From IMG/VR virus record IMGVR_UViG_3300025570_000150, positions 1 through 20,476 of that record: DNA of 20,476 nucleotides. One strand, 5' to 3'. The first letter of the stretch is position 1; every line of letters begins with the position of its first letter. Below, one piece after another: positions 3,078-4,953 of the stretch. Origin of the DNA: a virus. Position numbers and translations under genes: made by a program. The notes below the pieces were generated by a model, which saw only the letters and a program-made list of their open reading frames with translations, did not search any database and was not told where the DNA came from.

Positions 3078-3110
3078 AAAAAAACCTTCCAAACTCTGTA
3101 GCTTGGAAGG
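3078..3110 (-). terminator. Intrinsic terminator of the 3119-3588 gene pair
   Basis: On the transcript strand CCTTCCAA, a 10-base loop, then TTGGAAGG (8-bp perfect stem, 3110-3085), followed directly by seven T residues (3084-3078). It lies nine bases past the stop of the 91-residue gene. Confidence 0.88.
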
Positions 3111-3118
3111 CTTTTAGG

Positions 3119-3394
3119 TTAGCTATTCTCTTTAAGATATAAATCTATCTTATCAAAGTACGCTTTAGGGAGAACTTTCTTAGTGAAAAGCTCGTTTGCT
3201 TTCTTGAAAGTGAACCTCTGTTCTTTAGCTAGTCCGTATAAGCAACCCTGAATCTGCTTTTGCAGTCTCCAGTTCATAGAGCCAGTCTTCTGGTCTTTGG
3301 CGAACTTGTAGCCTAATCCCTGACATTGCTTGAATGAAGCAGGGCTTTGAAGTCTTTCTTTGTCGAAAGCGTTTATATCGAATGTATTTTCCAT
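3119..3394 (-). CDS. 91-residue hypothetical protein (intact copy)
   Basis: A 91-residue basic protein, probably soluble and mostly helical, with the stretches NAFDKERLQSPASFKQCQ near the start, MNWRLQKQIQGCLYGLAKEQ in the middle and ANELFTKKVLPKAYFDKIDL near the end. I do not recognise a family; the composition suits a small nucleic-acid or protein-binding protein. The ATG follows CTTAGGAGATAATC and lies just past the stop of the 63-residue gene. An intrinsic terminator follows nine bases after the stop. A decayed inverted copy of the gene lies at about 3917-4180, so this is the surviving member of a duplicated pair. Confidence 0.7.
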   Translation of the reverse strand: MENTFDINAFDKERLQSPASFKQCQGLGYKFAKDQKTGSMNWRLQKQIQGCLYGLAKEQRFTFKKANELFTKKVLPKAYFDKIDLYLKENS

Positions 3395-3396
3395 GA

Positions 3397-3588
3397 TTAT
3401 CTCCTAAGATTTATGGATTGTTGAATGCCAGCAATGTAGTCTTGCAAGCGGTTAAAGTCAAGTGCGTCTTCGCACTTAATTCCCAATGGCTTGATATCAC
3501 AATCGTTTAGGATTTGTGTGGATATCTCAGCTATTGAAACTGAGGGAAACTCGAAAGTTTCGTTGTTTGAGTAAGTTATTAGAATCAT
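3397..3588 (-). CDS. 63-residue hypothetical protein (intact copy)
   Basis: A 63-residue protein with hydrophobic N-terminal beta-like segment (MILITYSNNETFEFPSVSI) and a helical end (FNRLQDYIAGIQQSINL). No family is recognised. The ATG follows AAGGAGAAAAGC. It is the first gene of a two-gene unit, with a promoter-like sequence at 3617-3645 about 20 bases upstream of the ribosome-binding site. A decayed inverted copy lies at about 3752-3915, where the ATG has become GTG and the frame closes after 15 codons. Confidence 0.65.
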   Translation of the reverse strand: MILITYSNNETFEFPSVSIAEISTQILNDCDIKPLGIKCEDALDFNRLQDYIAGIQQSINLRR

Positions 3589-3608
3589 GCTTTTCTCCTT
3601 ATAATTTC

Positions 3609-3731
3609 TTTACAGGATTAAAACATAAAGATTTTAAAGTTGCAAATGCTTGAGTTTTTATGAAGCTTTAGCGTAATAAAAAGTTTTACTTGTAAACATT
3701 TGTGGCTTTAAAATCTTTATGTTCCTGTAAA
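3609..3731. repeat. Well-kept palindromic centre of the inverted duplication
   Basis: TTTACAGGA at 3609-3617 pairs with TCCTGTAAA at 3723-3731, a perfect 17-base arm at 3623-3639 pairs with 3706-3722, and CAAATG at 3643-3648 pairs with CATTTG at 3697-3702. The unpaired middle is 48 bases (3649-3696). The left arm has five extra bases after the first block. Confidence 0.85.
3617..3645 (-). promoter_or_regulatory. Promoter-like site for the 3119-3588 genes
   Basis: Read leftward: -35 TTGCAA (3645-3640, four of six), 17-base spacer, -10 TTTAAT (3622-3617, five of six). The corresponding place in the right arm has lost the -10 through a five-base deletion. Predicted start near 3610. Confidence 0.5.
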
Positions 3732-3751
3732 CCAGAAATTGTTAGGGGAAA

Positions 3752-3915
3752 AGTGTGAGGCTAATGACCAAACAACGAAACTTACGGGCTTCACACGCAT
3801 AGCTGAGCCACACAAAGACTGATTGTGGTGTCGAGCCATTGGGGATGTGTCTTTGACTGCTTGGAAGGCGTACAGTGCTGTGTGTTCAACGATTCATAAA
3901 GCTTTCTAGTTAAGC
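3752..3915 (+). pseudogene. Decayed copy of the 63-residue gene
   Basis: Collinear with the gene at 3397-3588 in inverted orientation. The upstream GAAATT and the ribosome-binding region survive as GGGGAAAAG, the ATG is GTG, and the block AAACAACGAAACTT (3770-3783) is unchanged. A four-base gap before it shifts the frame and a TAG at about 3799 closes it. Later landmarks such as TAGCTGAG and GAGCCATTGGG remain recognisable. No product is expected. Confidence 0.7.
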
Positions 3916-3916
3916 A

Positions 3917-4180
3917 TGGGGAATACATGTTGAGAGCTTTCGACAAAGAAAGACTTCACTGCTTCACGCACGTTAATTAATTAGGCTATAAGTTTGACAA
4001 AGACTCTCGGTCTATGTTAGAATACTGCATTCGTGAAGGCTTTCAAGTTAGGACTAGCTGAAGAACAGAGGTTTGCTTGGGTAGACTTCAAGAGCTTTTC
4101 ACTAAGAAAGTTCGGAAGGTACTGGTATAGATTTACTTTAGACAGGATAGCTTTGAAGTCTTCCAAGCTTCAGAGTTTGG
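3917..4180 (+). pseudogene. Decayed copy of the 91-residue gene
   Basis: Starts with ATGGGGAATACAT, matching the start of the intact gene at 3394 (ATGGAAAATACAT), but a TGA follows within a few codons. Blocks 3936-3958, 4051-4073 and 4092-4113 match the intact gene with at most one difference each. Gaps between them break the frame several times. It ends beside a remnant of the terminator stem (4160-4181) that has lost its T-tract. Confidence 0.75.
3994..4023 (+). promoter_or_regulatory. Promoter-like sequence inside the decayed arm
   Basis: -35 TTGACA (3994-3999, perfect), 18-base spacer, -10 TAGAAT (4018-4023, five of six) preceded by TG one base upstream (extended -10). The intact arm has CGCCAA and GAACTG-type sequence at these places, so the promoter arose in the copy. 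It would direct transcription rightward, towards the terminase genes. Confidence 0.5.
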
Positions 4181-4434
4181 ATGACACTGATGGTCTATTG
4201 TGACCACCTCTCTCAGGCTACTCAGGGGGTGGCAGGAGACCACTCCCCCTACCCTATATATCTATAGCATGGTTATACATTTTATAACGCACAACCCATT
4301 AACCAGAACTAGTTAACGCCCCGACACTAAAACCTATAAAGTTTCATAGCCTAGGAAGTATTTATTTGAGGTGATTGTTTTATCAGAATGATGACAAGGG
4401 ATTGTCTATATTGACCGTGGGGGACCACAATATT

Positions 4435-4463
4435 ATTGTACACTTCAAATCCACTTTTGTCAA
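4435..4463 (-). promoter_or_regulatory. Divergent leftward sigma70-type promoter
   Basis: Read leftward: -35 TTGACA (4463-4458, perfect), 17-base spacer, -10 TACAAT (4440-4435, five of six). Predicted start near 4428. The transcript would cross the decayed arm in antisense and could continue into the intact arm; the first intact gene it meets is at 3588, about 840 bases away. Confidence 0.7.
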
Positions 4464-4484
4464 GTCTTAATTTAAACTTGACAA
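4457..4484. promoter_or_regulatory. Palindromic operator-like site covering both -35 boxes
   Basis: A 28-base palindrome, 12 of 14 positions symmetrical, with outer arms TTGTCAAGT and ACTTGACAA. Each arm contains the -35 box of one of the two divergent promoters, so a dimeric regulator bound here would control both. Alternatively the symmetry may simply arise from two back-to-back TTGACAA boxes. Confidence 0.55.
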
Positions 4485-4506
4485 TCTTGAAATAGAACTG
4501 TATACT
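4478..4506 (+). promoter_or_regulatory. Strong sigma70-type promoter for the virion operon
   Basis: -35 TTGACA (4478-4483, perfect), 17-base spacer, -10 TATACT (4501-4506, five of six). Only six bases separate the -10 box from the ATG at 4513, so the predicted transcription start coincides with the start codon. Confidence 0.82.
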
Positions 4507-4512
4507 AGATTC

Positions 4513-4953
4513 ATGGCTATATTACCAAGTGTAAACAAAACATCAACTAAAAGAGAACTTACGGAAAAGCAACAGTCTTTCCTTACTCATCTTGTAGATA
4601 CTCAAGGTGATGCAAAGAAAGCCGCAGAGCTTGCAGGTTATTCTAGTCATTATCATCATGTTGTAAAGACTTTAAAGTCTGAGATACTAGAACTCACTCA
4701 AGAGATACTAGCTAACTCTGCCCCTAAAGCGGCTTTTAAAGTTGTTGAAATTATGGAATCTAAGAAGCCTGTAGTGCAAGCCGCTAATAAGCTAACTGCC
4801 GCACAGACTTTACTAGATAGAGTAGGGGTCAGTAAAGTAGATAAGATAGATGTTAATCATAATGTAAACAGTGGTGGTATCTTTTTAATGCCCGATAAAG
4901 CTCCAGTAGTTATTGAGGCTGAAGATGTTACATATCAGGAGGTAGAGAACTAA
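4513..4953 (+). CDS. Terminase small subunit
   Basis: A 146-residue protein with the layout of phage small terminases: an N-terminal helix-turn-helix region (LTEKQQSFLTHLVDTQGD then AKKAAELAGYSS, about 17-45) for packaging-site DNA binding, a central helical oligomerisation part, and a flexible C-terminal tail (IFLMPDKAPVVIEAEDVTYQ) expected to contact the large subunit. In the family, rings of this protein recognise the pac or cos site and start head filling. It is first in the rightward operon. No ribosome-binding site precedes the ATG, the -10 box ends six bases upstream, and no other in-frame start is near, so the mRNA is probably leaderless. The following gene overlaps its stop by one base (TAATG). 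Confidence 0.85.
   Translation: MAILPSVNKTSTKRELTEKQQSFLTHLVDTQGDAKKAAELAGYSSHYHHVVKTLKSEILELTQEILANSAPKAAFKVVEIMESKKPVVQAANKLTAAQTLLDRVGVSKVDKIDVNHNVNSGGIFLMPDKAPVVIEAEDVTYQEVEN

Follow-up and report, generated by a model that had tools for sequence, protein, structure and literature searches.

Leaderless mRNAs are usually regarded as oddities, or else as a trait typical of particular bacterial phyla. Among phages, the naturally leaderless mRNA that serves as the standard is that of the lambda cI gene, transcribed from the PRM promoter (PMC4965119). In Deinococcus-Thermus a -10 motif is found next to ORFs and the resulting mRNAs are leaderless (PMC12340547). A study of transcription starts in an alphaproteobacterium, which counted leaders of 0-9 nt as leaderless, placed 7% of the messages in this category (PMC9320726). 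Thus, leaderless mRNA as a kind is already known; however, a search of the open-access literature recovered no earlier report of a leaderless terminase mRNA or of a leaderless pelagiphage mRNA, and a deeply conserved leaderless terminase mRNA, such as the one predicted below, appears to be unreported there.

The locus considered here, the start of a phage gene for the terminase small subunit (terS), shares with lambda cI and PRM a sigma-70-type promoter, a predicted start on the AUG, the lack of a Shine-Dalgarno sequence and the presence of a divergent partner promoter nearby. It differs from them in that the product of cI is a lysogeny repressor and defined operators lie between the lambda promoters, whereas terS is the first gene of the virion block; moreover, both promoters are near-consensus here and a conserved operator was not found. 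With the Deinococcus-Thermus genes it shares a -10 box placed a few bases ahead of the start codon, where a specific spacing is required. There, however, the leaderless start is a genome-wide bacterial habit, while here it is predicted for terS alone: among the genes of the stretch analysed and those of the related phage HTVC104P, only terS has a promoter matching the consensus in at least 10/12 positions located 6-7 bases before the gene start.

The DNA that we analysed (hereinafter the window) is a virus record of 20,476 bases from a marine podovirus. Its first 3.6 kb comprise small leftward ORFs, while the rightward block runs in the order terS (4513-4953), small ORFs, terL, portal, capsid, and tail and fibre genes. 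Among cultivated phages, the window is closest to the pelagiphages HTVC103P, HTVC104P and HTVC115P, which have been termed HTVC103P-type (PMC10504331). The TerL DNA of the window is about 70% identical to that of these three phages (70% for HTVC104P), and its TerS protein shows 50-55% identity to theirs, typically about 54% (54% for HTVC104P). Homologous TerL and TerS proteins, together with portal and capsid PHROGs, place it among the HTVC103P-type and HMO-2011-related marine podoviruses. Like the HTVC103P-type phages, it has terS, TerL, the divergent-block layout, the promoter pair and a gap of 6 or 7 bases between the -10 box and the ATG. Unlike them, its TerS belongs to a separate clade (clade A) and its right -35 box is TTGACA, as opposed to the TTGTCA of HTVC103P and HTVC104P. 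It does not belong to the HMO-2011-type proper, where terS is found inside an operon after lysis-type genes (in HMO-2011 itself, after the lysozyme gene), whereas the terS of the window opens its block.

The initial annotation had pointed to two near-consensus promoters firing in opposite directions just upstream of terS, and these were readily recovered. The rightward promoter combines a TTGACA -35 box (4478-4483, plus strand) with a TATACT -10 box (4501-4506) over a spacer of 17 bases. The leftward one combines TTGACA (4458-4463, minus strand) with TACAAT (4435-4440), likewise with a spacer of 17 bases, and its transcript is predicted to start at the G at 4428. Each matches the consensus in 11/12 positions, a score reached by only four sites in the window. 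The total of 62 promoter-like sites in the window is no higher than in shuffled sequences (55.8, sd 9.3), and hence the promoter score alone proves little. What is unusual is the position of the promoter relative to the gene start, which has a probability of about 1e-3 of arising at any of the approximately 25 genes of the window by a composition-based estimate. As had been stated in the initial annotation, the rightward -10 box ends six bases before the ATG, being separated from it by the discriminator AGATTC (4507-4512). Given that transcription usually starts 7 bases past the -10 box, this gap puts the predicted start on the A of the ATG at 4513.

The terS ORF itself (146 aa; plus strand; PHROG 51 and 2538) lacks a ribosome-binding site, with a Shine-Dalgarno pairing energy of -0.1 kcal/mol at 4513, and there is no alternative in-frame ATG, GTG or TTG start near 4513; both points agree with the initial annotation. 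By contrast, the next ORF, starting with the ATG at 4953, is preceded by the Shine-Dalgarno sequence AGGAGG (4937-4942). The further statement that terS is in this regard unlike almost all of its neighbours holds for most genes of the window, which show energies of -6 kcal/mol or lower, but is slightly too strong, as terL (6206) and a few other genes are also weak. The start codon is ATG in the window and in the tallied relatives, where the start search accepted ATG only. The least structured segment of terS is the first 39 nt of its message, which fits a leaderless start without being specific to it.

To place this geometry in a comparative context, we used TerS loci from IMG/VR (80 + 80 + 80) plus those of cultivated phages. 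Across the set of clades A, B, C1 and C2, 203/206 loci have a near-consensus rightward promoter with a spacer of 17 bases and a gap of 6 or 7 bases, those of the Pelagibacter phages HTVC103P, HTVC104P and HTVC115P among them; the three exceptions are members of clade E. The spacer is invariably 17 bases in the 122 distinct upstream sequences, of which 64 have a gap of 6 bases and 58 a gap of 7 bases. All 122 also have a leftward promoter matching in at least 11/12 positions, and a pyrimidine (C or T) precedes the ATG in 120, as expected for a start on A. A Shine-Dalgarno core located 4-12 bases from the start codon is found ahead of none of the 122 terS genes and ahead of the following ORF in 72/85 cases; similar runs 0-3 bases ahead of the ATG are seen in 11/122 terS genes, too close to be typical. 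This geometry stays put even though the upstream region is otherwise diverged and rich in indels. Thus, the proposal of a leaderless terS mRNA, which originally came from the window alone, gains strong comparative support as a prediction.

The individual clades differ in what else they conserve. Each of the 50 distinct upstream sequences from the window's clade has TTGACA as its right -35 box; in clades B and C2 (e.g. L086, L100 and L200, over the bases from -60 to the ATG) this box is always TTGTCA. In clades A and C1 the bases of the gap and the spacer vary widely while their lengths are constant; unlike clade A, clade B has a nearly invariant 17-base spacer (ACTAG.TGTAAACTTGT). The TTGTCA box and this spacer may point to a regulator acting on the right promoter alone. 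In some relatives an in-frame upstream GTG or ATG overlaps the -10 box (L015 5986, L131 326), and so gene callers can add a false N-terminal extension to terS; any terS start that an annotation places further upstream, within the -10 box, is probably an error. In clade B many contigs (L092-L130) break off no more than a few hundred bases ahead of terS. Their end points are scattered and reflect breaks in the assembly or sequence variability, not a single physical end.

Two further clades provide natural contrasts. In clade D, which comprises HMO-2011-like phages, terS lies within an operon and there is no promoter at terS. In the sister clade E (L215-217, L330-341) a perfect TTGACA-17-TATAAT promoter is retained, but it sits 150-229 bases ahead of terS, and all 8 of its distinct sequences have a Shine-Dalgarno-like AAGGA, GGAG, GAGG or AGGA 5-9 bases before the ATG; none of these 8 has a recognisable paired leftward promoter. 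Hence, going by these predicted transcripts, a long leader is accompanied by a ribosome-binding site, and where there is no leader there is no such site. The availability of clade E makes the leaderless question testable. The TerS tree leaves open the branching order of clade A, clades B plus C2, clade C1 and clade E, as well as the ancestral state of the leader.

We also scanned all IMG/VR contigs for the DNA pattern only, namely a left -35 box and a right promoter followed by an ATG at a gap of 6-7 bases. Of the 120 sites returned, 61 encode TerS; all 61 have the left -10 box, and they include clades beyond those compared above. A scan with a gap of 10-11 bases, intended as a negative control, likewise returned terS at 35/120 sites, and accordingly a gap of exactly 6-7 bases was rejected as a universal feature. 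A third scan accepted any gap from 5 to 34. When the three were pooled, the TerS starts fell at gaps of 6, 7, 8, 9, 10 or 11 in 112/113 sites, with a single one at 32, although gaps of 6-7 and 10-11, which had their own scans, are over-represented in this pool. In the wider clades gaps of 8-11 are common, corresponding to predicted leaders of 1-5 nt, and a start exactly on the AUG is not universal. The predicted leaders thus span 0-5 nt across the wider family and 0-1 nt in the window's own wider clade. Some other genes share this arrangement of divergent promoters and predicted leaderless start, namely those coding for repressor-like helix-turn-helix proteins of about 270 aa (L353, L413, L428) and for a small DNA-binding-like protein of 56-60 aa (L350, L398, L404, L436, L455).

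The reading that we favour, with a probability of about 85%, is that the promoter pair is a compact two-way unit and that terS is translated from a leaderless mRNA starting on the A of its ATG. It draws on the promoter geometry, the conservation of this geometry, the lack of a ribosome-binding site and the clade E contrast, all of which are seen directly in the sequence. Under this reading, the main sigma factor of the host would read the two-way promoter, and its rightward half would set the start of RNA polymerase on the A of the terS ATG. The resulting message would be translated by 70S-type initiation on its 5'-terminal AUG, as for lambda cI, while the downstream virion genes would use ordinary ribosome-binding sites and the leftward promoter would launch an early transcript with a long leader. 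One possible effect would be to keep the output of TerS low relative to that of the capsid genes.

Another transcript with a leader could cover terS too, for example one from the 11/12 promoter at 3994, and phages often possess several promoters. It is nevertheless unlikely that the leaderless start is a minor one, with most TerS coming from such longer, upstream-started or read-through transcripts: the 3994 region is alignable only within the 12 closest loci, a longer message would still be without a ribosome-binding site at terS, and clade E indicates that, in these phages, a leader comes with such a site. The fixed gap might instead be kept for a reason unrelated to translation, such as a packaging or regulator site overlapping the terS start, given that TerS proteins often recognise DNA close to the gene that encodes them and that the clade B spacer is nearly invariant. 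We regard this as highly improbable, because the constant lengths with varying bases in clades A and C1 fit a promoter-to-start geometry better than a bound sequence, and because clade E couples the loss of the geometry to the presence of a Shine-Dalgarno site.

The two -35 boxes of the window form a 28-base imperfect palindrome (4457-4484), on which the initial annotation had placed a dimer switching the early and late blocks together. Viewed in isolation the window offers some grounds for such an operator, bound by a dimeric phage or host regulator acting jointly on both promoters, as 12/14 of the base pairs match, and some relatives, such as L036, have matching arms of 13 bases, though far apart. 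However, 6 of the 12 matching pairs are the -35 hexamers themselves. The comparison with relatives, which had been proposed as one of the checks, went against the palindrome as a conserved unit: the two -35 boxes are anywhere from 19 to 62 bases apart, with 19 different distances represented. A rigid dimer could not accommodate such variation, and the palindrome is ruled out as a conserved operator on these grounds. The inner flank of the left arm is not kept either, with A instead of C before the left TTGACA in 17/50 sequences of the window's clade, and the right box turns into TTGTCA throughout clades B and C2. Conservation among the relatives is confined to the bases of the promoter pair (TTTTGTCAA and [A/G]CTTGACAA), with no fixed two-fold site; a regulator site of the lambda OR type, i.e. 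a palindrome of fixed length common to both promoters, is thus absent. Hence, joint switching through this palindrome is very unlikely. Under the two-way promoter reading, the back-to-back placement of the -35 boxes would be no more than a by-product of the close packing of two promoters.

On the other side of the pair, the leftward promoter is predicted to give a leader of about 840 nt (3589-4428, minus strand) ahead of the first leftward ORF (3397-3588). Inside it lies a highly conserved noncoding element (4226-4336), possibly a structured RNA. Its minus strand folds with -42.4 kcal/mol (z of -3.9 relative to shuffles, as compared to -1.4 for the plus strand). The full multi-hairpin fold was discarded, as only the first hairpin is well supported over 30 relatives, with G-U pairs that agree with the minus strand. 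A search of this region returned no tRNA and no Rfam match at the gathering threshold (a single weak match was meaningless). By eye, HTVC115P and clade E show a similar sequence ahead of their terS genes. The element may act as a leader RNA or else as a DNA site, for packaging or as an origin. The early-left and late-right layout suggested for the window is supported by the annotated close relative HTVC104P, where the two blocks opened from the promoter region are real: the replication genes (SSB, primase and DNA polymerase) lie on one side and the virion genes on the other, with the blocks converging near 17.4 kb.

More tentatively, one short two-way host promoter might open both genome halves in an abundant group of marine phages, the virion half with a leaderless terminase mRNA as a form of translation control (through low TerS or a late 70S shift) and the early half with a long structured leader RNA; we consider this wider picture possible, if doubtful. 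If the leaderless start is real, a virus would be keeping leaderless translation for one chosen gene while its other genes mostly use Shine-Dalgarno sites, and a large group of ocean phages would have kept it between clades with TerS proteins only about 50% identical.

Two segments of the window, 3080-3651 and 3694-4190, are the arms of a decayed inverted duplication (about 0.55 kb; centre near 3673). Its noncoding right arm, which contains the 3994 promoter (11/12), repeats the leftward genes 3119-3394 and 3397-3588 in inverted orientation, including stretches identical at 23/23 and 22/22 positions. Only the 12 closest relatives share the duplication. Further, two identical 19-base direct repeats (CCCTCAACCAACCGACCAA) are located 30 bases apart between leftward genes (2903-2921 and 2933-2951).
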